Shown: piece by piece, positions 315-58,902 of the stretch
Layout: each line of letters starts with the position of its first letter
Numbering within the stretch: the first letter of the stretch is position 1
NCBI GenBank assembly: GCA_021822485.1
Contig: JAKAQP010000003.1
Span: 1-64,000 of the forward strand
Direction of reading: 5' to 3'
Length of the DNA stretch: 64,000 nt
DNA from: a bacterium
GTDB taxonomy: Bacteria > SZUA-79 > Acidulodesulfobacterales > Acidulodesulfobacteraceae
The notes under the pieces: generated by a model
What the model was told of the DNA's origin: nothing
Databases searched by the model: none
The model's input: the letters and a program-made list of their open reading frames with translations, nothing else
Translations under genes and position numbers: made by a program

Positions 315-863
315 ATGAAAAAGTCTAAATTTTTTTTCCTGTTTATGTTTTTGTTGGCATTTGTCTTTACGGGAACGTATTTTGCGGGAAAAGCTTTTGC
401 ATTTCAAGGCATGCAAAAACACAATTTTATGGGGCATAAATTTATGCGCCGCGGTAAAATGAATATGTGGATGAGAATAGGTATGTTTAATGTTTTTACG
501 CTCAAAAAGAAATTGCATTTAAATAAAAATCAGTTTCATCAAATTATGCTGTTTAAACGCCAGGAATTTAAAACTTTTAAGTCTAATATGGGAAACTTTG
601 GAAATCCGCTGCTTGCGGCAATGAAATCCGGTACGTTCGACAAAAGCGTTTTCGTATCGGGTATTACGAATAAAGTTAAAAATATGGCCGAAATTAAAGC
701 AAACTTTTTTCAAAAATTCTTTAGCGTTTTAACGCCGAAACAGAGAAACGAATTTGTGCAAATGATGAAGAACAGAATTGCCGATAAAATTAAACGCCTT
801 GAGTTTATGAAAAAAATGTTGGACAAAAAAATTAAGGCAATGAAAGAAAATATGTCCGAATAA
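315..863 (+). CDS. Spy/CpxP-like periplasmic protein
   Basis: A 182-residue secreted protein. The N-terminus is a clear signal peptide (KK, then a hydrophobic stretch ending near AFA at about residue 30). The mature part is very basic, Met- and Phe-rich and predicted helical. It carries an LTPKQRNEF segment, the LTxxQ motif typical of the Spy/CpxP family of periplasmic chaperones and stress adaptors. The ATG follows an AAGGAGAG ribosome binding site at good distance. A response regulator and a histidine kinase follow on the same strand, the arrangement of cpxP-cpxR-cpxA-like modules, so a role in sensing or buffering envelope or metal stress is inferred. The family call rests on one short motif plus context. 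Confidence 0.6.
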   Translation: MKKSKFFFLFMFLLAFVFTGTYFAGKAFAFQGMQKHNFMGHKFMRRGKMNMWMRIGMFNVFTLKKKLHLNKNQFHQIMLFKRQEFKTFKSNMGNFGNPLLAAMKSGTFDKSVFVSGITNKVKNMAEIKANFFQKFFSVLTPKQRNEFVQMMKNRIADKIKRLEFMKKMLDKKIKAMKENMSE

Positions 864-1116
864 TATCTTTTTTTTGAATATCGATTGGCATTATTAGTAT
901 TAATCGGCATCCTGAACGGTTAATTTTAAATTTTGCGAAGCGGTTGCGTTATTTGTTATCATCATATTAATGTGGCCGCTTCCGCCGTCTTATTTATCAA
1001 ATTAATATAGTAATGCAATTTAATTCGATATTTATTATATTATATCCTTTATGGCATGCGAAGTTTTAACAATTTTTTTATTTTACATACTATCATTATA
1101 AATATTATTAAATATT

Positions 1117-1821
1117 ATGACAAAAGTTATAATGATTGAAGACGACAAAGAAATCGCCGAACTCTTAAAAGAATATCTTTATAAATTTAATATAGAACTG
1201 GTAAATTTTGAAACAGCGGAAGGCGGACTTAACGCTTTAAAAGAGAATGCAGACGGCTTTGACCTTTTAATTTTAGACCTGACGTTACCGGACTCCGACG
1301 GATTAGAAGTATGCAAATCTGTTTCTCAGTTATACGCTCTTCCGATAATTATATCTTCGGCAAGGGGCGATTATTCCGACATAGTAACGGGACTTGAAAT
1401 AGGCGCAGACGATTACGTCGCAAAACCTTACAATCCGCGAGAGCTTGTCGCGCGGATCAGGGCGATAACCAGAAGAAAAGCGTCTAATAAAAGCAAGGTT
1501 ACCGGCAATAATGAGGTTGATAACGGCGGCGGCTTTGAAATAGACGAAAACAAAATGCTTATTAAAAAAAATGGGAAAACCGTCGACTTAACCTCTGCGG
1601 AATACGAGCTTTTTTTGCTTTTATATAAAAATAAAGGAAACGTTATTACAAGAGACTATATTTTGGAAAATATTAAAACTATGAGCTATGAAAGCATAGA
1701 CAGGACAGTCGACGTTTTGATAGGAAGAATAAGAAAAAAAATAGGGGACGATCCGCGAAATCCAAAATACATTAAGTCCATAAGGGGTTATGGATATAAA
1801 TTTTACTATGATGAAAATTAA
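1117..1821 (+). CDS. OmpR/PhoB-family response regulator (CpxR-like)
   Basis: A 234-residue two-domain transcription regulator. The receiver domain (about 3-115) shows the acidic pocket IEDD (8-10), phosphoacceptor Asp54 in LLILDLTLPDSDG and Lys103 in ADDYVAKPY. The C-terminal winged helix (about 135-230) has the family pattern TSAEYELFLLLYKNKGNVITRD and SIRGYGYKF. It overlaps the downstream kinase gene by a few bases, so the two are almost certainly one transcriptional unit. CpxR-like function is inferred from the upstream Spy/CpxP-like gene; another OmpR-family specificity is possible. No good Shine-Dalgarno is seen before the ATG. Confidence 0.88.
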   Translation: MTKVIMIEDDKEIAELLKEYLYKFNIELVNFETAEGGLNALKENADGFDLLILDLTLPDSDGLEVCKSVSQLYALPIIISSARGDYSDIVTGLEIGADDYVAKPYNPRELVARIRAITRRKASNKSKVTGNNEVDNGGGFEIDENKMLIKKNGKTVDLTSAEYELFLLLYKNKGNVITRDYILENIKTMSYESIDRTVDVLIGRIRKKIGDDPRNPKYIKSIRGYGYKFYYDEN

Positions 1822-3055
1822 CAGACACTCCGTATTGTTTAAAATAAATATAGTTTTTATTCTGTCTTTTGCGGTATTGCTGTTTTTCTATTTATTTGCG
1901 CATAAAATAATAAACCGCGTCGAAACTTTCAAATTTCTTAGAAAAGCCGTGTTTCTCGTTAAAAAAAATAAATTAAAAGACGCCGAAATGTTCGGCGTTA
2001 ATTTAATAAAAAATACAAAAAATATCGATAAGATTTTAAAAAACGGCAAAATTATATTAAAAAGAAATCCTCCCCGCCTTAATTATACGCTTAATTTACT
2101 AAGCCTAGACGGAAATAAGTATTTATATTTCAAGTCTAAAACGGGAACAACTAATCTTTTATTAAAAAGAATTTCCGGCATAAACGAAAGGCAGAACATT
2201 TTATTAGCCGCATGGATAGGTTTAAACGTTATACTTATTCTCTTGTATATTAGTATATTCCGCTCTATAAGGCCTCTTAAAAAATTAAGGGACAATATTG
2301 AAGAATTTAAAAACGGAAATATATACGTCGATTTAAGCGGCTATGCTTCAAGAAAGGATGAGATAGGATTTTTGGCGAAAGAATTTAAAGAAGCTGTAGA
2401 TAATCTTAAAAAAACCATGAATACTAGAGTTTGGTTTATTAGAAACATAGCACACGAATTAAAAACGCCTATTACTAAAGGAAAAATTGCCCTCGAATTA
2501 TTAAAAGACGAAGACGAAAATAAAAAAAGAATATTTTCGGACATATTTAACAGGCTTGAAATGCTTATAAACGAACTTTTCGCCGCGGAAAAAATAGCGG
2601 CGGGAAGCGAAATTTTAAATATGACCGCCTGCAGTTTAAAAGACGTAATCGACAGGGCAACCGAACTGCTTTTCGTAAAAAACGACGGCGTTATAAGCGT
2701 TATTTCCGATAATACGAATTATACGGTTAAAGCGGATTGCGAACTGCTTAGCATAGCTATAAAAAATTTATTGGATAATGCGGTTAAATTTAAAACTAAC
2801 GAGGAATCGGCCGTCACCGTAAACATAGAAAAAGGCGTTTTGAACATAATAAACGAAGGAGCAAAACCTTCTATTTCAGAAGACGCTATGTTTGAGCCTT
2901 TTGCAAAAGATATTAACGCAAAAAATAAAGACGGCTTCGGACTCGGTTTGTATATAACAAAACAAATAATAGAAAAACATGGATTAAAAATTATATACGA
3001 ATATACGGGCGGCAAAAATATTTTTAAAATAGATTTAAATAAAATTCAAATTTGA
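1808..3055 (+). CDS. HAMP-domain sensor histidine kinase (CpxA-like)
   Basis: Membrane histidine kinase partner of the preceding regulator. Two transmembrane segments (about residues 9-30 and 135-157) enclose a periplasmic sensor of roughly 100 residues. HAMP, dimerisation and ATPase domains follow. The phosphoacceptor is in HELKTPITKGK, the N box in NLLDNAVKF and the G box in GFGLGLYI. The ORF track starts at 1790, but the ATGATG at 1808/1811 overlapping the regulator stop gives the usual coupled start and I prefer it. The substrate or stress sensed cannot be read from the sequence. Confidence 0.85.
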   Translation: MMKINRHSVLFKINIVFILSFAVLLFFYLFAHKIINRVETFKFLRKAVFLVKKNKLKDAEMFGVNLIKNTKNIDKILKNGKIILKRNPPRLNYTLNLLSLDGNKYLYFKSKTGTTNLLLKRISGINERQNILLAAWIGLNVILILLYISIFRSIRPLKKLRDNIEEFKNGNIYVDLSGYASRKDEIGFLAKEFKEAVDNLKKTMNTRVWFIRNIAHELKTPITKGKIALELLKDEDENKKRIFSDIFNRLEMLINELFAAEKIAAGSEILNMTACSLKDVIDRATELLFVKNDGVISVISDNTNYTVKADCELLSIAIKNLLDNAVKFKTNEESAVTVNIEKGVLNIINEGAKPSISEDAMFEPFAKDINAKNKDGFGLGLYITKQIIEKHGLKIIYEYTGGKNIFKIDLNKIQI

Positions 3056-3671: not shown

Positions 3672-5774
3672 TTACAAGGGTATCATAACGATTATAAAAA
3701 AAGCCGCGATAAAGACGAAGAATATATAAAATATGTACAAATTTAAAGAACCGTTCTGCATAAGTTCGGTCGTTACGGAACTGATTTTTTCGAACAGTTT
3801 TATCAGGGGCAGATATAGATAATATTCGATAAGCGGAAATATATAAGAGCCGTAACCGCTTGAATTATGATAATAAGACGAGTAAGGAAAAGGGTTTTTA
3901 AGTTCGTGAGGATGTTTTGATGTTTCGCTTTGAACATGTACCCTGCTTCTTTTTTTATAAACAAGATTAAACATAATTCTTAAAGCATTGGAAAAACCCA
4001 GCGCCGATACCTGCGCATGCGGATTTATTAAATTTTTGCTTCCGCCGCCTGTCCATGCGTAATCCACGAAACGCTGCTTGGGTTTTACTATAGTTTTATA
4101 TAAAATATAAAGGATTAATATAAACGCGATCGATACGAAAAACAGGTAAACAGGGCTTGACGCAGAAAACGAGCTGTAATAAGGTATAAATATATAATTT
4201 TTTAATATTTTACCGCTAATATTAATGTGATATATAGACTGCGATACTTTTGACAGAACCGGAGTATATAAAAACATAAAGCCCGCCAACGATATGCCGA
4301 TAAGCGCCGGTATTAAAAGGGCTATATTCATAGAAAACGGAACTTCTTTCGCTTGTTTTGCTTCCTTTGACTTCGGCAAACCGAGAAACGTAAGTCCGTA
4401 TAATTTTACGTAAGTCGAAACAGCAACGGCCATACTTAAAGCCATTATGGCTCCTACCGTAAAAATAAGTATCCTTGGAAGAACGGAACTTATATGAAAA
4501 CCTAAAAAAACAACCTCGAGATTGAGCCATTCGGAAACGAACCCGTTAAGCGGCGGAATTCCGGCGGCGGATAAAATCCCTATAAATATAAGCACTCCGG
4601 TCAAAGGCATGCCTTTTAAAATTCCTCCGAATTTATCGATATCGTGGCTTCCCGTTTCATATTCTATATTTCCCGAACCCATAAATAAAAGGCTTTTAAA
4701 AAACGCATGATTTATTAGAGCATATAGCGAGGCGACGAGAGCAAGCGCTGAGAGACCGGCCAAACCGAAATAATTATAATAAAGCGATGCGCCTATTCCG
4801 GTTAATATCAAACCCATATTATCGACGGTAGAATATGACAACAGCACTTTAATATCATGCGTCTGAGACATATATAAAACGCCGAAAAACATCGTTGACG
4901 CCGCAATAATCAATACGATTGAACCAAGCATTAACGCAGTGTTTAGCGGATGAAGAACATAAAGTCCAAACCTGATGACCCCGTAAACTCCGCAGGACGT
5001 CAACACGCCGCTTAAAACTCCGGACACTCCCGAAGGCGACGCGGGATGAGCCTCAGGCAGCCATATATGAAGTGGAACTATGCCCATTTTTGCCCCGAAA
5101 CCGAATAAAAACAACAGAAAAACTATTTCTTTTACATAAGCCGGCATCGTTAAACTTTTAAGCGTTTCGAAATTAAAACTATTTGCATGCAAATATAAAA
5201 TTATTAAACCGACTATTATAAGCATTGCGCCTATTTCCATTATGACCGCCATTAAAAAAGCTGCCCTCTTGGTTCCCTTGACATAATGTTTGGTCATTAC
5301 AAGAAAATAGGAAGATACCGCCATAATTTCCCAAAAAATTATGAATATAAAGCCGTTAAAAGAAATAATGACGTAATAAACGCTGATAAGCATTATGCCG
5401 AACAGGAACGAAAAAAGCGGCGTATTTATCTCTCGCCCTATCTTTTCGATATATTTTATCTGGTAGAGGGCTATATAAAAAAATACCGAAAAAATAAACA
5501 GTATAAAAAAATCGCTTAGCGGGTCGAATTTTAATATTATTCTGCCTGCCGGAAAAAATCTTCCAATCTGAAACGACAGGTTTAAAAGATTTCCCGCTTC
5601 CATAAACGAAATTACCGAATATAAAACAGCCGTAAAGGAAGCCGCCATATATAGAATGTTTGAAAAAACGAAGGGTATGGATTTAAATCTATCCCCCGAA
5701 ATCAAACCTATCATCGAAACAATAACGCCGGATAACGAAAAAAGTAAAAATAGATAATAATAATTATACGTCAT
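3672..5774 (-). CDS. HyfB/NuoL-like proton-conducting antiporter subunit of Ehr-like complex
   Basis: A 700-residue polytopic membrane protein of the Mrp/NuoL antiporter family, closest in style to HyfB/HycC. It has about 15 hydrophobic helices, the conserved core WLPEAHPASPSGVSGVLSG (about 235-255), and a C-terminal extension with additional helices. It should form a proton- or sodium-translocating channel in the membrane arm. It is the last gene of the six-gene unit and overlaps the fusion gene upstream by ATGA (5771-5774), so translation is coupled. In known hyf operons hyfB comes first; here it is last. Confidence 0.85.
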   Translation of the reverse strand: MTYNYYYLFLLFSLSGVIVSMIGLISGDRFKSIPFVFSNILYMAASFTAVLYSVISFMEAGNLLNLSFQIGRFFPAGRIILKFDPLSDFFILFIFSVFFYIALYQIKYIEKIGREINTPLFSFLFGIMLISVYYVIISFNGFIFIIFWEIMAVSSYFLVMTKHYVKGTKRAAFLMAVIMEIGAMLIIVGLIILYLHANSFNFETLKSLTMPAYVKEIVFLLFLFGFGAKMGIVPLHIWLPEAHPASPSGVSGVLSGVLTSCGVYGVIRFGLYVLHPLNTALMLGSIVLIIAASTMFFGVLYMSQTHDIKVLLSYSTVDNMGLILTGIGASLYYNYFGLAGLSALALVASLYALINHAFFKSLLFMGSGNIEYETGSHDIDKFGGILKGMPLTGVLIFIGILSAAGIPPLNGFVSEWLNLEVVFLGFHISSVLPRILIFTVGAIMALSMAVAVSTYVKLYGLTFLGLPKSKEAKQAKEVPFSMNIALLIPALIGISLAGFMFLYTPVLSKVSQSIYHINISGKILKNYIFIPYYSSFSASSPVYLFFVSIAFILILYILYKTIVKPKQRFVDYAWTGGGSKNLINPHAQVSALGFSNALRIMFNLVYKKRSRVHVQSETSKHPHELKNPFPYSSYYHNSSGYGSYIFPLIEYYLYLPLIKLFEKISSVTTELMQNGSLNLYIFYIFFVFIAAFFIIVMIPL

Positions 5775-6653: not shown

Positions 6654-7826
6654 TCATTTATCCAATGCCGCAACGGAAAAATTATAACTCGTCTCGTTTA
6701 TGTTAAAATCCATCATCATCGTATTTTTTGTACCGCAGGCAAACAATTTATAATTATTTTCAAACGGATATTTTATGCTTATTTTTTTAAAAATAGTACC
6801 GTCAAAATCTTTTATATAACAAAAAATTGCTCCTTCGGACGATTCCGCGTATCCAAAACCGTGCTTTGACTTTTCGTCTTTAAAATATCGGTTTTCCAAA
6901 TCCTTCGACTCTTCAAATTCTTCCTGCTTCGATAAATAATCCGCCGTGTAACGAAATCCATTTCGTTTAAGCATATCGCGACAGTATTCAAGTATATTTA
7001 AAGACTGCCCTATTTCTTCAATTCTGACCATATATCTCGAAAAAGCATCTCCGTCTTCAAATACGACGGGTTTAACGTTTATTTTACCGTATAAAAGATA
7101 CGGCCTGTTTATTCTTAAATCTGATGAAATACCTGCGCTTTTTGCTGCAACTCCTTTTGCGCAGAACCGCTTTGCCGTTTTTAAATCTATTTTTCCGGTA
7201 GTCTTCAATCTGTCTATGTGGGATTTTGTTTCCATATTTTTTTTAATTATTTCCTGAACTTTATTTACGATTAATCTTACGGAATTAAAAATATTTTCGA
7301 TATCTTCGAGCGATAAATTTACTCTGATTCCGCCTATTTCGTTAATGCCCATAAAATAACGGGATTTTAAATACTTATGAGACAACTGTTTTAACGCCTC
7401 CGCATGATAGGCATATAAAGCGGAAGGAACCTGAATATAGGTGGACTCGGCTATTTCCGATAAATTTTCTATATGGTTTCTGATTCTTTCAAATTCTGCA
7501 AAAAACATTCGCAGAATTTTAATATTATTATGTATTTTATCCTTAAGCCCTAAGAAATCTTCAACGCCGAGGCAGCAGCTCAGGGAAGCGGAAAAAGCGT
7601 GAAGTCCCGATATTCTCTCTATAAGCAAAATCTGTTCGTATAAATTTCTTTTTCCGGCAAGAATGGTTTTAACATTTCTTGTCTTATAACCTGCCGTAAT
7701 TTCTAAATTATGAAGCTCTTCCCCCGACGACAGAAAATTAAATAAAATAGACTCGGAAACGCCTTTTCTTACCGGACCCCAGATAAACTCGTAATCTCCC
7801 AAAAATTTATATTTGCCGTGATTCAT
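6654..7826 (-). CDS. NuoD/HyfG-like large subunit lacking Ni-Fe ligands (Ehr-type)
   Basis: A 390-residue homologue of the group 4 hydrogenase large subunit/NuoD, without an N-terminal NuoC-like domain. The residues that bind the Ni-Fe centre are gone. The N-terminal motif RICGIC reads RISGLH (Ser73, His76), and the C-terminal DPCxSC reads NFSVAA (Ser384, Ala387). The protein ends without the usual protease-cleaved tail. This is the signature of Ehr complexes, described as links between complex I and group 4 hydrogenases. So it should not make or use hydrogen; the electron donor/acceptor or ligand is unknown. Framed by hyfF-like and ferredoxin/hyfI-like genes. Confidence 0.85.
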   Translation of the reverse strand: MNHGKYKFLGDYEFIWGPVRKGVSESILFNFLSSGEELHNLEITAGYKTRNVKTILAGKRNLYEQILLIERISGLHAFSASLSCCLGVEDFLGLKDKIHNNIKILRMFFAEFERIRNHIENLSEIAESTYIQVPSALYAYHAEALKQLSHKYLKSRYFMGINEIGGIRVNLSLEDIENIFNSVRLIVNKVQEIIKKNMETKSHIDRLKTTGKIDLKTAKRFCAKGVAAKSAGISSDLRINRPYLLYGKINVKPVVFEDGDAFSRYMVRIEEIGQSLNILEYCRDMLKRNGFRYTADYLSKQEEFEESKDLENRYFKDEKSKHGFGYAESSEGAIFCYIKDFDGTIFKKISIKYPFENNYKLFACGTKNTMMMDFNINETSYNFSVAALDK

Positions 7827-7851: not shown

Positions 7852-9345
7852 TTATTTTATTTTAAAATTTATGATATGGACTATCCCAATTAATAAATTA
7901 TGCAGACCGCTTGGAATATAAAATCCTAAAATTAACGATGCCGCGAGCGGCAGTAACATAGGCACATATGAAAACGGCGAAAAATCGCCTCTTTCCTCGT
8001 TAAAATTTTCGTCCGCTTTACCGAAAACAATAGAACCCGTTTTCGACAACAGGCTCACAAACGCCGCAATTAAGAGGCTTATCAACAAAACCGTCATCCA
8101 GTAATAGCCGTTTTTTAAACTCTGGAGTATTATTAAAAATTCACCGATAAATATTATAGAAGGCGGGGCGCCGATTAACGCCAGCACGCCGGCAGAAAAT
8201 AAAAAAGCGGTCTTAGGCATAACATAAAAAGCCCCTTTAATTTTTTTAATATCTTTTGTTTTATATTTGTGTAAAAAATTGCCGGAACCGAAAAACATAA
8301 CCGGCTTTATCAGGCTGTGTCCCAGCATTTGCAAAAGCGCGCCAAAAGTTCCGAATATTCCACCCAAACCGAACCCCAAACTAATTATGCTCATATGTTC
8401 TATGCTAGAATACGCGAAAAGCCTCTTCGTAGTTTTTTGATTGATAATTCCCATTACGCCGATAAATAAAGAAAAAAGACCGATTATAATCATAATAGTC
8501 TGAGGGAAGTTAAAACCCAAATTTTTCCCGGTAATATTAAAATACCTCATTATGCCGTACATTGCCGTATTTAAAAGGGAAGCCGAAAGCATGCTTGAAA
8601 TAGGAGAAGGAGCTTCGGAATGGGCATCGGGAAGCCACGTATGCATTGGAGCAAAACCGACTTTAGTGCCCAAACCGATTACTATTAAGACAAATGCGAA
8701 TCTTACTATATCCTTATTGAGATAAACTGCGTTTAAGCTTAAATTAGTCCAATCCATAGATGTAGCAATATTTCCGCTTCCCGGAATATTCCCCGAAAGA
8801 TAAAAAAGTACAGTGCCTAAAAGAGCAAGGGAAATTCCCGCAGAAACTATCACTATGTACTTCCATGCGGCTTCTATAGACTTTTCCGTAACTTCCGCGA
8901 TAACTAAAAAAGCGCTCGTTATCGTCGTAAGTTCGATATCTATAAGATAAACCGCCATGTTATTAATCATGGGGGCAACCAGCATACTCAACGCAAAAAG
9001 ATTTAAAAAAAAATAATACCTGAAAAATTCTCCGTCGGTTATCTGTTCGTCTTCAATTGCAAGCCTCATATATGAAATTCCGTACATAGAAGACAAAAAA
9101 TACACGATGCCGACCAGCAGTATTATATAAGAGCTAAATTTATCTATTACTATCGCCCCGTTAAAAATCGAGACGGTTTTCAGGGTTATCGAAAAGTAAA
9201 GAATAATAAACGCGCCGGCAAGGTCTAAAGAAGAAGAAAAAAGACTTGCATATTCGACAAATCTTTTATTTTTTAAAATAAAAGAACTTAAAGAAACAAA
9301 TAGCGGAATTATCAAAAATATAACGATAAAAAGTTTCATATTCAT
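7852..9345 (-). CDS. HyfF/NuoN-M-like antiporter subunit of Ehr-like complex
   Basis: A 497-residue membrane protein with about 13-14 hydrophobic helices. It has the antiporter-family core HTWLPDAHSEAPSPISSMLS (about 235-255) and the later HSLIKPVMFFGSGN segment carrying a conserved Lys. It is the second ion-channel subunit of the cluster besides the HyfB-like protein. Two such subunits imply at least two ion-translocation paths. It begins just after the hyfE-like stop (spacing 6 bases), within the same unit. Confidence 0.85.
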   Translation of the reverse strand: MNMKLFIVIFLIIPLFVSLSSFILKNKRFVEYASLFSSSLDLAGAFIILYFSITLKTVSIFNGAIVIDKFSSYIILLVGIVYFLSSMYGISYMRLAIEDEQITDGEFFRYYFFLNLFALSMLVAPMINNMAVYLIDIELTTITSAFLVIAEVTEKSIEAAWKYIVIVSAGISLALLGTVLFYLSGNIPGSGNIATSMDWTNLSLNAVYLNKDIVRFAFVLIVIGLGTKVGFAPMHTWLPDAHSEAPSPISSMLSASLLNTAMYGIMRYFNITGKNLGFNFPQTIMIIIGLFSLFIGVMGIINQKTTKRLFAYSSIEHMSIISLGFGLGGIFGTFGALLQMLGHSLIKPVMFFGSGNFLHKYKTKDIKKIKGAFYVMPKTAFLFSAGVLALIGAPPSIIFIGEFLIILQSLKNGYYWMTVLLISLLIAAFVSLLSKTGSIVFGKADENFNEERGDFSPFSYVPMLLPLAASLILGFYIPSGLHNLLIGIVHIINFKIK

Positions 9346-9351
9346 ATGGTT

Positions 9352-10026
9352 TTAACCTACCAACCTGTTTAACATAGTAGTAGAAAATGAACCTGTCTGT
9401 ATCTTCATAAACATAGAAAGAATCAGCATTGCCGTTACCGTCACCAGAATATCGAATAAAACTACCAGTTCTACTATGAGCGGAAGAGTCGGAACTACGA
9501 CGACCGATAAAAGAAATATTCCGTTTTCTATGACAAGAAGTCCAAGAATATGCGTTATCGTAGTAAATCTCGAGATAATCATAAAAAACCCTACGAATAT
9601 TAAACTTAATGCAATCGAAGAAGCGTTTACGACTATTTTAGAAGAAAACGGGGAAATCAATCTGTATATCAAAAAATAGGCAAAAACCGTTAAAACAACG
9701 CCTGAAATAATAGAAAACGGTATTTTAAGGGTCAATTTTACTTCTTCTTTAATGTTAAATTTTTTTATCATTTTTAAAAGAATGTAAGGAACAAATATAG
9801 TTCTTACGAAAAGCGTTAAAAAAGCGACAAGATACAAATCTACGCTTTGCGCTTCTATTCCCAGAATCAGGGTAAGGACGAATATTAAAAACGACTGGAA
9901 ACCGTAAGCGTGTATATAAAACGAAATCCATCTAGAACTCAGCATTACGAACGAGGACAGAAGAACCAGCGAAACCAGGAGGTCTTCGATAACGTAAATG
10001 TAAAGCGGCATTGAGTATCCAAGCAT
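9352..10026 (-). CDS. HyfE/NuoK-like membrane subunit
   Basis: A 224-residue membrane protein with about six to seven hydrophobic helices, in the position and size of HyfE. The C-terminal part (about 135-220, LGLLVIENGIFLLSVV) shows the NuoK-like pattern with an intramembrane Glu (VIENG). It would link the channel subunits of the membrane arm. It starts 3 bases after the hyfC-like gene ends, so the two are tightly coupled. Confidence 0.8.
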   Translation of the reverse strand: MLGYSMPLYIYVIEDLLVSLVLLSSFVMLSSRWISFYIHAYGFQSFLIFVLTLILGIEAQSVDLYLVAFLTLFVRTIFVPYILLKMIKKFNIKEEVKLTLKIPFSIISGVVLTVFAYFLIYRLISPFSSKIVVNASSIALSLIFVGFFMIISRFTTITHILGLLVIENGIFLLSVVVVPTLPLIVELVVLFDILVTVTAMLILSMFMKIQTGSFSTTMLNRLVG

Positions 10027-11001: not shown

Positions 11002-11011
11002 TATAATAAGC

Positions 11012-11100
11012 CAATACTCCTTTTTCTACATTGCGTTTAATCAATAAATTGTGCCACGCTTACAATACTGCGTCAACCAATATGCGATGTAGGAGTTATT
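11012..11100 (-). promoter_or_regulatory. Riboswitch expression platform: alternative pairing that masks the ribosome binding site
   Basis: The strand ACTCC-TACATCGC contains the 3' half of the aptamer pseudoknot. It can instead pair with GCAATGTA (7 of 8 bases) and, across a GAAAAA bulge, with GGAGT, the Shine-Dalgarno core of the hyfC-like gene. Pseudoknot and anti-Shine-Dalgarno helix exclude each other. Ligand binding should therefore free the ribosome binding site and switch the cluster on. The pairing is seen in the sequence; the switching is inferred. Confidence 0.6.
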
Positions 11101-11142
11101 AGCTTGTTATTTATACAAAGCGTTTAGGCAAACCCCATTGCC
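11088..11142 (-). promoter_or_regulatory. Fluoride (crcB) riboswitch aptamer
   Basis: Read on the minus strand, a 55-base element fits the crcB/fluoride aptamer as I recall it. P1 is GGC...GCC, followed by the AAACGC joint. P3 is GCTTTGT/ACAAGC with a one-base bulge. The 3' part is GCTAATAACTCCTACA, matching the family GCTGATG...CCTACA. The key pseudoknot forms: GGGGTT in the first loop pairs over six bases with AACTCC (one G-U). It begins about 6 bases after the predicted transcription start of the complex-I-like cluster. No covariance search could be run. Confidence 0.8.
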
Positions 11143-11154
11143 ATAATTTTTATA

Positions 11155-11241: not shown

Positions 11242-11695
11242 TCAAGCAATTATCTTTTTATATTTAAGATATTTAATTATGTTTAAATAAACATTACAAA
11301 TATCTTCGAAGACCGTCGCCGCCAGCTTTATATCTTTTACGATTTCATCTTCATTAAGAGGATATTCATGCGATAAACCGTTCCTTAATTCCCTATATAA
11401 TCATTCCATTTATCTGAGCTGTCTATTATTTCTAATTTTTCCATTTTATCAAAAATGTCTATAAAAGACATATTTCTTTTATATTCTCCTAAACTCGCCA
11501 AAACTTCTTTAAAAAGCTTTTCGCCCATTAAGTCCTGAATTTTAATAAACGAAAAATAAAAGAATCTATAACGCGCCTTTTGTTATCGTCGTCAAAAAAT
11601 TGCGGCGTTAACGCATTCCAAGATTTTATTTCTTTATAATCGCTTTCGGCTCTTTTTATATTAATATCTATAATTTCGAGCGTTTCTTCTAGCAT
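11242..11695 (-). pseudogene. HepT-like HEPN RNase toxin remnant, two frameshifts
   Basis: Absent from the ORF track because it is broken. From the ATG at 11695 the reading is MLEETLEIIDINIKRAESDY... to RRVIDSFIFR. A missing base shifts frame, after which FIKIQDLMGEKLFKEVLASL... continues to WNDYI. A second missing base shifts it again into RELRNGLSHEYPLNEDEIV... and a stop at 11242. Joined, this is a helical HEPN protein of about 150 residues with the RNGLSH (RX4H) catalytic signature of HepT-type toxins. Its start overlaps the end of the nucleotidyltransferase remnant, as in intact hepT/mntA pairs. Neither shift lies in a long homopolymer, so decay is more likely than sequencing error. Confidence 0.75.
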
Positions 11696-11986
11696 AGTAA
11701 AATTCCCTCGTTCTTAGCCGTTTCCTGAATAGGCTTAAATTGAGAAAAAGGAGTTTTTACTATTAAATCCACTTTTCTGTCTGCCGCAAGCCTGCGAAAG
11801 CTTGTTAAAAACTTAAGTTCGGCAAGTTTTTCGACATCTTTGTCCGTTTCAATAAATATATCTATATCTCCGCCCTTCTTATCGTCGTATATTCTGCTTC
11901 CGAAAAGATAAACCTTAGCATTATTGCCGAAGTATTTTTTTTGCCTGTTCTATCAATACCCTTTTTTCTAAATCGGAAAGTCTCAT
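11689..11986 (-). pseudogene. MntA-like minimal nucleotidyltransferase (antitoxin) remnant, one frameshift
   Basis: From the ATG at 11986 the reading is MRLSDLEKRVLIEQAKK, then a frameshift in a run of eight A. Removing one A restores YFGNNAKVYLFGSRIYDDKKGGDIDIFIETD through to KNEGILLC. The GSR...DIDIF motif is that of MNT-fold nucleotidyltransferases, which act as antitoxins by AMPylating HepT toxins. It overlaps the HEPN remnant by 7 bases. The homopolymer location means this shift alone could be a sequencing error, but the partner gene has two further shifts. Confidence 0.75.
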
Positions 11987-12141
11987 TGTTTTTTGACATA
12001 TTTACTGTGAAAAAGATTAATTTATTTGTATTTTATCATAAAATCTAATATTTTTAACAAAATTTGTTTTGACATGATGAATTTGATTAAATAATAAAAT
12101 AGTCGTACGTATTTAGAAAATAAAGAGGATTCTAATAAAAA

Positions 12142-30854: not shown

Positions 30855-31460
30855 ATGTCTTTAAACCATTCTGATTACGTTAAAGATATAGTATTCGCAT
30901 TTAAAAAACTCCCCGGCATAGGCGAAAGATCTGCAAGAAGGCTTGCATTTTACTTATTGTCACAGAACGAATCCGTAGCTTACGGTCTTGCGGATGCAAT
31001 AAAAAATGCCAAACAAAACATAAAATTATGCCAAAAATGTTTTAATCTAAGCTCCGACGATATCTGCCATATATGCGGCAACCCGTCGAGAAACGGAAAA
31101 CAGCTTTGCATAGTAGAAAATCCCGAAATAATATACGTATTTGAAAAGAGCGGAAATTATAACGGTTATTATCATGTATTGCACGGTTTAATAAATCCGC
31201 TGGAAGGGGTAACGCCGTCCGATTTAAAGCTTAAAGAGCTTGCGAGCAGAGTAGAAATCGGCGGTTTTGAAGAGATTATACTTGCGCTTAATCCAAACTC
31301 CAACGGGGAAGCTACCTCTATATATATACAGAAAATTTTATCGCCTTATAACGTCCGCATTTCCGCTTTGGCAAGAGGGATACCCATAGGCTCCGATTTA
31401 GAATATGTGGACAAAGACACTCTCTCGGAAGCCATTAATTATAGAAAAAAATTCGATTAA
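30855..31460 (+). CDS. recR: Recombination protein RecR
   Basis: A 201-residue recombinational-repair protein of normal length. N-terminal helix-hairpin-helix KKLPGIGERSARRLAFYLL, zinc finger CQKCFNLSSDDICHICGNPSR and Toprim domain (LCIVENPEIIYVFEKSG...YHVLHGLINPLEGVTPSDL). Twelve bases after ybaB. Confidence 0.97.
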   Translation: MSLNHSDYVKDIVFAFKKLPGIGERSARRLAFYLLSQNESVAYGLADAIKNAKQNIKLCQKCFNLSSDDICHICGNPSRNGKQLCIVENPEIIYVFEKSGNYNGYYHVLHGLINPLEGVTPSDLKLKELASRVEIGGFEEIILALNPNSNGEATSIYIQKILSPYNVRISALARGIPIGSDLEYVDKDTLSEAINYRKKFD

Positions 31461-31461
31461 G

Positions 31462-33771
31462 ATGAACAATAAGGTTTTACTTATATCGATTGACAACCTC
31501 AGATACGACTGTGTAAGTTATATTAAGAACAGGCCTCATCTTAAACAATTTTACGTCGAAAATTTAGTCGATACACCCACGTTAGACAAAATCGCCGAAA
31601 ACTCAACGGTTTTTACGGATTTTTTTTCAACATCGAGCTATACTACCGCTGCGCATGCTTCTTTATTCACCGGATTGCTACAGCCCAAGCACGGTTTAAG
31701 GCCTTTTTTTTATAAAAAAATGAGGGCAGACTGTGCGACTCTCGCGGAAATTTACAAGAATAACGGCTATAAAACCATATTCTATTCCGACGTTATAGAA
31801 CTTTTTCAGCCTCTGGGACTGACCAAAGGATTTGATTTTATATGCGCAAACGATATTAATCCGCTTTTTAAACAAATTTCTCTTTTAGAAAACGAAAAGG
31901 TGTTCTGTTTTATACATCTTTTCGACATTCACGAACCTTATATTTTTTCGCAAAATTATAACGAAAACCATTATAACGACGACTATTTTGCATTCATCAA
32001 CAAAATGTCATCTTTATATAAAATACCAGTTCAGAACAATAATCCTTTCACTCTCTGGAATAATTTTTCCGGAAAAGTAAATTACGGGGTACAAATTATG
32101 CTTCCCCCATATATTTACGGCGTCAATAAATTCGACAAAGGACGATTTAGGCTTATATATGGTTTTTTAAAAAATACGGGGTATTTTAACGATGAAAATA
32201 TCTATTCTATTTTTGCCGACCACGGAGAAGGCAGAATAGTTTTCTACGATATGCCTGTTTTCGGACACATGGGCGAACTTTTCGACGAAGTTATAAAAAT
32301 ACCGCTGATACTGCATGCGCCGCAATTAGAAAAAGGCGTTAATAATAAATTAGCTTCAATAGTTGATTTATTTCCCACGCTAATGTCTTTATCCGGTTTT
32401 AACGCTGTTTCCGACGATAAAAACGCCGCCGCAGTAAATAAAGTTACAAATTTAATTAAAACGGACGGATTATCTTTGTTGGGAGAAAAAGAAAGGGAAT
32501 ACTGCTATTCGGAATTTTGCACGCAAAATATGTATAACGAAATAATGCAATTTTCCGCAGGCGTTTATGACAGAAGCAAAAACGGCGCCTCTTCTAAAGA
32601 CAAATATTTCCTGTCTCAACGCTCAATAAGAACTAAAGACCGTAAATATTTATTTATTCCGGATAATATTTTGCAGTCGGAAGCAAAAAAAATCATAGAA
32701 AACATAAATCTTTCCGATGAAGACTTTATAATAGAAATGTTTAACTCAGTTATGAGAAAAAGGGTCAGCAAACCCGAATACCTGTTTCTCCTCAATTCGC
32801 TTAAATCGAAACAGACTGCGAGACAAAACATTTATCAAAGCATGATAACTTCGGAAATTTATAACAGGCCTAAAAATTATTTCTTTGACCTTATAAACGA
32901 TCCGCTCGAAGAAAATTTTAACTTGCTAAATATCTCTCTTTCGGATTCAATAAAATATATAGAAATATTAAACGAAATAGAAAGCCATTCATTTATAAGC
33001 GAAAACTTATTCGACGATAAAAGTGCAACCGGCAAAAACGGCGCACGCATTATATTTAACCAGCCGGAATCCGATAAAAACATAGCGGCTGAATCTCTTG
33101 CGCTTCTTGAACAAAAAATTTCGCTCGGTATAGAAATTATTAAAGAAGCGGAAGACAGATATGGAGATAAAATCGGCATAGCATTCACGGGCGGTAAAGA
33201 TTCAACCGTTTTATTAGACTTGATAAGACGTTCGAAAAATGGGAAAATACCTTTTAAGGTTATTACCATAGATACGTCGGCAGAATTCCCCGAAATTAAA
33301 GAATTTATGGAAAAATTAAAATCCGCTTGGAACTTCGAAATTGTAAAATACTCAAACAATGAAGCGCTTCGGCAAAAATATCCTATAGCTAAAGATAAAA
33401 CCGACTGCTGCAACACTCTTAAAACTATTCCTCTTAAGGAGTCTATTAAAGATCTTCATCTTAAAGCTATGTTTACCGGAATAAGAAGGGATGAAAACGA
33501 AGCAAGGGCAAACGAATCATTTTTTTCTAAAAGAAAAGACCCCCACCATTTCAGAGTCCATCCTTTGCTTCATTTTACGGAAAAAGATATATGGGATTAT
33601 ATTAAGTTTAATAATCTTCCATACTGCAATCTGTATGAACAGGGTTACAGATCTTTAGACTGCGCGCCTTGCACTCATATAACGGCAGAAAAAGATGCCG
33701 CCGAGCGCTCCGGGCGCTCACAGGATAAAGAAGCCGCTATGGACAAACTGCGTCAGCTTGGATATTTTTGA
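31462..33771 (+). CDS. Fusion: alkaline-phosphatase/sulfatase-fold domain plus CysH/CysD-like PP-loop domain
   Basis: A 769-residue cytoplasmic protein (no signal peptide). The ORF track starts inside recR at 31405; the ATG at 31462 right after the recR stop fits the sulfatase domain start. The N-terminal part (about 1-370) is alkaline-phosphatase fold: SIDNLRYDC metal Asp, YTTAAHASLFTG nucleophile region, and ADHGEG. The nucleophile position is Thr, not the Cys/Ser of formylglycine sulfatases. The C-terminal part (about 555-769) is PAPS/APS-reductase-like: PP-loop FTGGKDSTVLL, RRDENEAR, and CC...CAPC spaced by 83 residues as for a 4Fe-4S cluster. The catalytic ECGLH tail of APS reductases is absent. 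Substrate unknown; a sulfur or phosphate ester is guessed. Confidence 0.75.
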   Translation: MNNKVLLISIDNLRYDCVSYIKNRPHLKQFYVENLVDTPTLDKIAENSTVFTDFFSTSSYTTAAHASLFTGLLQPKHGLRPFFYKKMRADCATLAEIYKNNGYKTIFYSDVIELFQPLGLTKGFDFICANDINPLFKQISLLENEKVFCFIHLFDIHEPYIFSQNYNENHYNDDYFAFINKMSSLYKIPVQNNNPFTLWNNFSGKVNYGVQIMLPPYIYGVNKFDKGRFRLIYGFLKNTGYFNDENIYSIFADHGEGRIVFYDMPVFGHMGELFDEVIKIPLILHAPQLEKGVNNKLASIVDLFPTLMSLSGFNAVSDDKNAAAVNKVTNLIKTDGLSLLGEKEREYCYSEFCTQNMYNEIMQFSAGVYDRSKNGASSKDKYFLSQRSIRTKDRKYLFIPDNILQSEAKKIIENINLSDEDFIIEMFNSVMRKRVSKPEYLFLLNSLKSKQTARQNIYQSMITSEIYNRPKNYFFDLINDPLEENFNLLNISLSDSIKYIEILNEIESHSFISENLFDDKSATGKNGARIIFNQPESDKNIAAESLALLEQKISLGIEIIKEAEDRYGDKIGIAFTGGKDSTVLLDLIRRSKNGKIPFKVITIDTSAEFPEIKEFMEKLKSAWNFEIVKYSNNEALRQKYPIAKDKTDCCNTLKTIPLKESIKDLHLKAMFTGIRRDENEARANESFFSKRKDPHHFRVHPLLHFTEKDIWDYIKFNNLPYCNLYEQGYRSLDCAPCTHITAEKDAAERSGRSQDKEAAMDKLRQLGYF

Positions 33772-58184: not shown

Positions 58185-58570
58185 CTATTTTATATTTATT
58201 TTTTTTAAAGCAAATAATTTTACATATTCGGCTATGGCAATAGCTTCTTCTGCATCTTTCTTAGACGGTTCTATAATATCATCATATCTAACTATAACCG
58301 CATAATTTGTTATATCGTCTATATTTAATCTTTCAAGTTCGCTAAAAGCATTATCTATATTTTGCAGGCTTGTAATAATTCCGATATATCATGCGTTTTA
58401 TTAATTTCTTTATTGTTATAAACCAAGTAAGTTTTTAAAAATTTTTCAACCGCCTGTTGACAGTGAAAACAAATTCCTTCTGCGGATGCTTCATTGCTAT
58501 TATATAATATTTTAGCATCTTTTAAATCGTTTTCAGCTTTTTTTAATAAAACGACAACGGATTCTTTCAT
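58185..58570 (-). pseudogene. HEPN-domain protein, frameshifted
   Basis: The track shows a 71-residue ORF ending THDISELLQACKI. Restoring one base near GCCTGC continues LQNIDNAFSELERLNIDDITNYAVIVRYDDIIEPSKKDAEEAIAIAEYVKLF to a stop at 58185, giving a normal HEPN protein of about 128 residues (COG2250-like, with ICFHCQQAVEKFLKTYL). It overlaps the nucleotidyltransferase gene by 4 bases, the usual pair layout. No RX4-6H RNase motif was noticed, so it may be the non-toxic HEPN type. Confidence 0.75.
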
Positions 58571-58902
58571 ATATTTACGCCTTCTTTATTAACGTAATAC
58601 GATAAAAATCCTGTATCGTTTTTTTGATTTTTATATATATCTTTAGATTTAATAACAATATCGTTCGATATGTTATTAACAGCCATTCTTCTACGAATAT
58701 TGCGCAAAATCATTTTCATATCTTCTTTAAATATATTTTTATCAATTACTACAAAAAAATCCCAATCACTGCCTTCTTTATAATCCCCTCTTGCCCTTGA
58801 ACCGAATAAAATTATCCTCTCCACCTCATAGCCGGCTTTTTCGACTTCTTCCATAATTATTTTTTTTGCGATTTCAAGGTTTTTATCTAATGCCTTTTCC
58901 AT
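58567..58902 (-). CDS. MNT-type minimal nucleotidyltransferase
   Basis: A 111-residue nucleotidyltransferase-fold protein with ILFGSRARGDYKEGSDWDFFVVID, the GSR...DxD signature of the MNT/HI0073 group. It is intact, unlike the copy at 11689-11986. Its HEPN partner directly downstream is frameshifted, so an antitoxin or modifier may remain without its partner. Confidence 0.85.
   Translation of the reverse strand: MEKALDKNLEIAKKIIMEEVEKAGYEVERIILFGSRARGDYKEGSDWDFFVVIDKNIFKEDMKMILRNIRRRMAVNNISNDIVIKSKDIYKNQKNDTGFLSYYVNKEGVNI

Follow-up and report, generated by a model that had tools for sequence, protein, structure and literature searches.

What does a hydrogenase-like complex do once its large subunit has lost every residue that would hold nickel and iron? 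The question is raised by an operon of an acid-mine bacterium of the phylum SZUA-79, located in a 64,000-nucleotide stretch of contig JAKAQP010000003.1 (assembly GCA_021822485.1; hereafter, the window). Below we describe the large subunit and its five partner genes, the RNA leader that precedes them, and their relatives in the phylum and on plasmids: together these suggest a role in defence against fluoride.

The large subunit and its former active site

An initial annotation placed a large hydrogenase-like subunit at positions 6654–7826. The open reading frame is real, but lies on the minus strand (7826–6654; 390 aa; P0001), the plus strand of the interval having no open frame. The product belongs to the Complex1_49kDa family (Pfam, E = 4.8e-28). 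In an alignment of 45 sequences the four ligands of E. coli HycE – C241, C244, C531 and C534 – correspond to S73, H76, S384 and A387 of P0001, which bears out the annotation's reading that all four Ni-Fe ligands are replaced and that RISGLH and NFSVAA occupy the former ligand motifs. Its further statement, that the rest of the protein is conserved, holds only in part: the N-terminal 30-kDa (HycE/NuoC) domain, though present in plasmid relatives, is absent from P0001, and the histidine of the GPxH motif is arginine.

Cysteines that might rebuild the site from elsewhere in the protein were looked for and not found. C85, C282 and C336 are invariant among close orthologues of P0001 but missing from the rest of the clade, and the alignment contains no cysteine common to the wider clade that could replace the Ni-Fe ligands; a rebuilt metal site was thus rejected. 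A pseudogene, or a decaying hydrogenase, was rejected because dN/dS for the large subunit is 0.10–0.16 and the replacement motifs barely vary: the stretch NTMMMDFNINE[TA][ST]YNFSVAA is nearly invariant among proteins that are otherwise 57–94% identical to P0001. Retention of the replacements in orthologues, combined with this dN/dS, indicates that the loss of the Ni-Fe ligands is old and that P0001 is under selection.

The quinone-site residues of NuoD, which the annotation had proposed for comparison, are likewise gone. By alignment the histidine of GPxH – a quinone ligand in NuoD – corresponds to Arg20, and the tyrosine of the DY motif to Gly74; with both ligands absent, the idea that quinone is reduced where complex I reduces it was rejected. 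An AlphaFold2 model built from 12 orthologues was poor (pLDDT 47), and its PDB matches, the complex I 49-kDa subunit and HycE, are in line with the sequence. Large subunits from the Ca. Acididesulfobacter lineage (L016–L021, L043–L046) carry long Asn/Ser-rich insertions, with the former active-site motifs unaltered.

The operon and its leader

P0001 is encoded by the fourth of six minus-strand genes that run from 11001 to 3672 in the order HyfC-like, HyfE-like, HyfF-like, large subunit, ferredoxin-NuoB fusion and HyfB-like (Table 1). All six products are identifiable as group-4-type large and small subunits and antiporter-like membrane subunits; the HyfB-like subunit also matches the NCBIfam model for hydrogenase 4 subunit B (E = 3.6e-146, under the curated cut-off). 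The six genes include neither a formate dehydrogenase, a maturation protease or an NADH module, nor a dehydrogenase or other substrate-binding subunit.

Table 1. Features of the operon and its leader, in window coordinates.
Feature	Position	Strand	Basis
HyfB-like antiporter-type subunit, 700 aa; E149, K229, K360 and E415 retained	3672..5774	-	Pfam Proton_antipo_M, E = 7.3e-46
Two-[4Fe-4S] ferredoxin domain fused to NuoB/HycG-like subunit, 270 aa	5771..6583	-	Pfam Fer4_7 and Oxidored_q6, E = 2e-20
EhrL, large subunit of hydrogenase type with no Ni-Fe ligand, GPVR for GPxH, no 30-kDa domain, 390 aa	6654..7826	-	Pfam and alignment
HyfF-like antiporter-type subunit, 497 aa; E138, K228, K347 and E402 retained	7852..9345	-	Pfam Proton_antipo_M, E = 1.8e-44
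HyfE-like membrane subunit, 224 aa; Glu167 and Glu186 retained	9352..10026	-	NCBIfam hydrogenase 4 membrane subunit, E = 8.8e-18, under curated cut-off
NuoH/HycD/HyfC-like membrane subunit, 323 aa	10030..11001	-	Pfam NADHdh, E = 7.6e-30
AGGAGUAUUGGCUU, ribosome-binding site of the first gene, partner of aptamer 3' strand	11008..11021	-	Minimum-energy fold and leader comparison
Aptamer 3' strand AAGCUAAUAACUCCU, predicted partner of the ribosome-binding region without fluoride	11091..11105	-	Minimum-energy fold
Fluoride riboswitch aptamer (crcB motif, RF01734)	11083..11151	-	Rfam cmscan, 46.7 bits, E = 8.3e-10 over the window

Comparison of individual residues shows that the proton-channel residues of HyfF, HyfB, HyfE and HyfC are retained, and comparison of cysteines that all four of the proximal cluster are present in the ferredoxin-NuoB fusion. 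The annotation had the membrane partners as conserved: this is true of the proton channels, but not of the HyfC-like subunit, where two changes are specific, or nearly so, to the group of riboswitch-linked relatives defined below (the fluoride clade). The glutamate that follows the conserved Arg139 is serine here and serine or alanine in the clade, and an aspartate in a loop is deleted in all SZUA-79 members and in three of the four plasmid members. Judged from these residues, the membrane pumping arm is intact and the catalytic interface rebuilt.

What the annotation missed is a fluoride riboswitch at the head of the operon. The aptamer, at 46.7 bits against an Rfam gathering score of 34, ends 82 nt upstream of the first gene. 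The predicted pairing recurs in related genomes: across eight distinct leaders, 97% of cells in the pairing between the aptamer 3' strand and the ribosome-binding site are paired (17–50% in slid controls), and one compensatory change alters both sides of a pair. We infer that the leader is a translational ON switch, in which the binding of fluoride would free the ribosome-binding site.

Other features of the window deserve a brief record. Just upstream of the riboswitch (~11340–11990, minus strand) are broken remnants resembling a nucleotidyltransferase (MNT/HEPN-type) gene pair; an intact nucleotidyltransferase is found at 58567–58902 (minus strand). A 788-aa fusion of sulfatase (PF00884) and PAPS reductase (PF01507) domains, encoded at 31405–33771 (plus strand), would couple sulfate-ester hydrolysis with sulfonucleotide chemistry in one protein. 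At 315–3055 (plus strand) a small periplasmic-looking protein precedes a response regulator and a histidine kinase, a set that by reading alone resembles a Cpx-type envelope stress system.

Relatives, phylogeny and CrcB

The distribution of the operon was examined in 30 genomes of SZUA-79, a phylum that includes Ca. Acididesulfobacter (e.g. Ca. Acididesulfobacter diazotrophicus). The large subunit is found in 17 of these; in three more, the riboswitch and a portion of the first genes lie at the edge of a contig. All but one of the 18 fluoride riboswitches in the 30 genomes precede the operon's first gene, at distances of 43–224 nt, while the remaining riboswitch is upstream of crcB. Every operon whose upstream DNA is present has a riboswitch (14/14, counting two under the Rfam cut-off and one, in G005, recognised by conserved motifs only), whereas the ordinary Ehr paralogue (type B) that occurs in many of the same genomes has none. 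Among the crcB genes found in the phylum, a fluoride riboswitch was detected only at that of G027; apart from this gene, the fluoride-switched gene set of the phylum is the Ehr-like operon. A contig scan with family-specific motifs, which would miss distant members, matched only SZUA-79, and a scan of viral contigs gave no match.

Beyond SZUA-79 the survey covered plasmid records. Fluoride riboswitches also precede relatives on plasmids of Burkholderia cenocepacia, B. multivorans, Caballeronia, Mycobacterium branderi and Alicyclobacillus, and are absent at 14 plasmid loci taken for comparison, which comprise ordinary Ehr, FHL and further group 4 relatives. On those plasmids that are annotated, crcB, mutS and genes for pyrophosphatase, enolase and DUF190 are among the neighbours; in M. 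branderi the riboswitch is separated from the genes of the complex by a NUDIX gene. The window's gene order and ferredoxin-NuoB fusion are common to Burkholderiaceae and Mycobacterium; at the Alicyclobacillus locus the large subunit alone was found.

Phylogenetic analysis unites the window family and five plasmid sequences in one clade (support 99/98), the fluoride clade. This is sister to ordinary Ehr (92/87), and the joint clade (100/100) excludes Hyc/Hyf, NuoD and an aldehyde-oxidoreductase-linked group 4 protein. In this sample of plasmids and one phylum, the fluoride clade is sister to all ordinary Ehr and not nested within it. A long-branch artefact was rejected: rebuilding the tree with type A, L081/L082 or Burkholderiaceae left out in turn gave the clade a support of 97–100. 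Four alignment columns mark the fluoride clade, R20 and E378 most clearly. Position 20 is Arg or Lys in 15/15 members (GPV[RK]) and His (GPxH) in 30/30 other sequences, and position 378 is Glu or Asp in 15/15 members and never in the others.

Phylogeny does not place P0001 inside the active group 4 hydrogenases. The Ehr pattern that had been recognised here stands as regards group-4-type subunits, missing Ni-Fe ligands and a position outside active hydrogenases, but the fluoride-linked clade is distinct from ordinary Ehr. That the complex is simply an Ehr of the ordinary kind, as the annotation took it to be, and is not specifically connected with fluoride is in our judgement highly improbable: it has the same subunit set and the same ligand loss, but the riboswitch, present at all 14 operons, is found at none of the ordinary Ehr paralogues of the same genomes, and the tree sets the two apart.

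A second reading comes from the literature. In 2010 'formate hydrogen lyase' genes were reported to lie downstream of the fluoride motif (PMC2864571), and a 2024 review, which places formate hydrogen lyase among the commonest riboswitch-associated enzymes, reads the association as a change to anaerobic oxidation of formate and as a means of making ATP from it (PMC11139923). Taken at its word, the label would make this a genuine formate hydrogenlyase induced by fluoride, for which we see almost no chance. The Ni-Fe ligands are absent; the operons contain no gene for formate dehydrogenase, HycI or any Hyp protein; in the tree, four genuine Hyc/Hyf sequences fall in other places; and two plasmid FHL loci that were scanned have no riboswitch. 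In addition, HypD was not found in five genomes with the operon, among them the window's own (90% complete) and G012 (100% complete), which implies that no Ni-Fe maturation is needed. Indeed, since every riboswitch-linked member examined, in SZUA-79 and on plasmids, is without a Ni-Fe site, the label does not fit any of them. Ehr complexes have for their part been judged improbable as hydrogenases, with their partners or function still to be established (PMC6349859, PMC10284858); a literature search, with most subscription papers outside its reach, found none that joins Ehr with the fluoride-riboswitch 'formate hydrogen lyase'.

CrcB occurs in 2 of the 20 genomes with the operon compared to 6 of the 10 without it (Fisher p = 0.007 over all genomes and 0.13 within the genus, shared ancestry being ignored), and the CLC-F signature (as quoted in PMC11139923) is absent from the six CLC proteins of the phylum that were checked. 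From its distribution the operon would appear largely to take CrcB's place in SZUA-79, though plasmid members of the clade co-occur with CrcB. Both observations also suit the main rival to the reading we develop below: that the complex is itself the fluoride exporter, its remodelled cavity (Arg/Lys20, Glu378) and membrane arm moving F- or HF out, driven by electrons or by H+ antiport, and so replacing CrcB directly. One basic and one acidic residue are, after all, fixed only in the fluoride clade; furthermore, acidophiles often hold an inside-positive membrane potential, with which a passive Fluc channel would be useless. However, subunits of the antiporter type are known to carry H+ and Na+ rather than anions, R20 and E378 belong to the peripheral large subunit and not to the membrane, and the Burkholderia members of the clade adjoin CrcB. 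Direct export is, on balance, unlikely.

Function of the complex and comparison with known systems

The explanation we favour, and hold to be probably correct, is that the six subunits form a complex-I-like ion pump that defends the cell against fluoride: a non-hydrogenase, induced by fluoride and derived from the group 4 hydrogenase/Ehr lineage. What the sequences themselves show is the riboswitch, the loss of the Ni-Fe ligands, the clade, a conserved gene order, retained proton-channel residues in the membrane arm and the scarcity of CrcB where the operon occurs in SZUA-79; the steps of the mechanism are inferred from these. As fluoride accumulates in the cell the leader RNA would refold, freeing the ribosome-binding site and allowing translation of the operon. 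Low-potential electrons would then pass through the pair of ferredoxin-type clusters and that of NuoB to where the active site once was, and the energy released would drive H+ (or Na+) out through HyfB, HyfF, HyfE and HyfC. Such pumping would offset the acid load and the loss of proton-motive force that follow entry of HF, both of which would be severe at acid-mine pH. Protons are unlikely to be the electron acceptor, there being no Ni-Fe site, and quinone at the usual site is unlikely also, given the loss of both ligands. Ion pumping is favoured because fluoride, which crosses into the cell as HF, makes the cytoplasm more acid and reduces the proton-motive force, and because Na+/H+ antiporters are common among fluoride-riboswitch targets; fluoride stress is tied in general to pH homeostasis (PMC11139923).

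Not all members need be driven by redox chemistry. While the FeS cysteines are retained in the window family and in Burkholderiaceae, the NuoB-like subunit on the M. branderi plasmid (L082:10111–10902) has lost all four proximal-cluster cysteines along with several of the ferredoxin domain, and probably carries no electrons through the proximal cluster. This loss argues against redox drive being needed by every member of the clade, some of which may carry ions without any redox chemistry. On a plasmid of Allomeiothermus silvanus (L084:10065–10943), an Ehr-like complex that has no riboswitch has also lost all NuoB cluster cysteines and is apparently a second redox-dead case.

The same cysteines bear on a further alternative, in which the complex is an oxidoreductase for a soluble substrate, induced as a fluoride-tolerant stand-in for respiration when fluoride blocks enolase, pyrophosphatase and ATP synthase. 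The intact FeS relay of the window and Burkholderiaceae would serve such an enzyme, and replacements for inhibited enzymes are frequent in fluoride-riboswitch operons (PMC11139923). We nevertheless think it improbable, as none of the six genes supplies a dehydrogenase or substrate-binding subunit and the relay is lost in M. branderi. A more ambitious version of the ion-pump proposal, which we advance tentatively and with more doubt than belief, is that this branch of the complex I/hydrogenase superfamily is a dedicated primary-transport machine for fluoride defence. It would expel fluoride, or the protons that accompany it into the cell, would stand in for CrcB in a phylum of acidophiles, and in certain members (M. 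branderi) would have shed its redox chemistry entirely.

The annotation took the substrate of such complexes to be unknown; more can now be said from the riboswitch, the fluoride-linked clade and the apparent replacement of CrcB in the phylum. Through the conserved riboswitch, one Ehr branch is tied to a physiological signal, and its function can be put directly to the test. A label in use since 2010 is also corrected, the riboswitch-linked 'formate hydrogen lyase' members examined being without the catalytic site. Our comparisons suggest that one branch of the Ehr class of membrane complexes, until now called 'formate hydrogenlyase', serves in defence against fluoride; should it prove to replace CrcB in acidophiles, the complex would represent a previously unrecognised route to fluoride resistance.

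Among known systems the closest is ordinary Ehr, the sister group in the tree, with which the complex shares a group-4-type subunit set, Mrp-like antiporter subunits and the absence of CxxC ligands. It differs in having the fluoride riboswitch, the GPV[RK] and [ED] signature and a ferredoxin-NuoB fusion; in the order of its genes (H-E-F-D-[Fd-B]-HyfB, whereas in ordinary Ehr HyfB is first); and, in the window's family, in the missing 30-kDa domain. E. coli Hyc/Hyf has homologous subunits and the same conserved antiporter Glu and Lys residues, but belongs to another clade, and has the Ni-Fe ligands (two CxxC), formate dehydrogenase and maturation protease that the window complex does not; the genuine FHL loci L129 and L130 carry fdhF and hycI. 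Complex I (NuoD/NuoB/NuoH) is allied to it by the Pfam 49-kDa family and the nearest PDB chains, but not by the two quinone-site ligands or the NADH module. With the fluoride-riboswitch regulon (crcB, CLC-F, eno, ppa, mutS) it shares the riboswitch and, among plasmid members, also the gene islands, although it is a multi-subunit complex-I-like machine and not an exporter or replacement enzyme. Archaeal Mbs/Mbx (PDB 6u8y) is, finally, of Ehr type, with altered Ni-Fe ligands and an antiporter arm, and gives a weak match (41 bits); Mbs, in contrast to the window complex, keeps part of the cysteine set and reduces sulfane sulfur.
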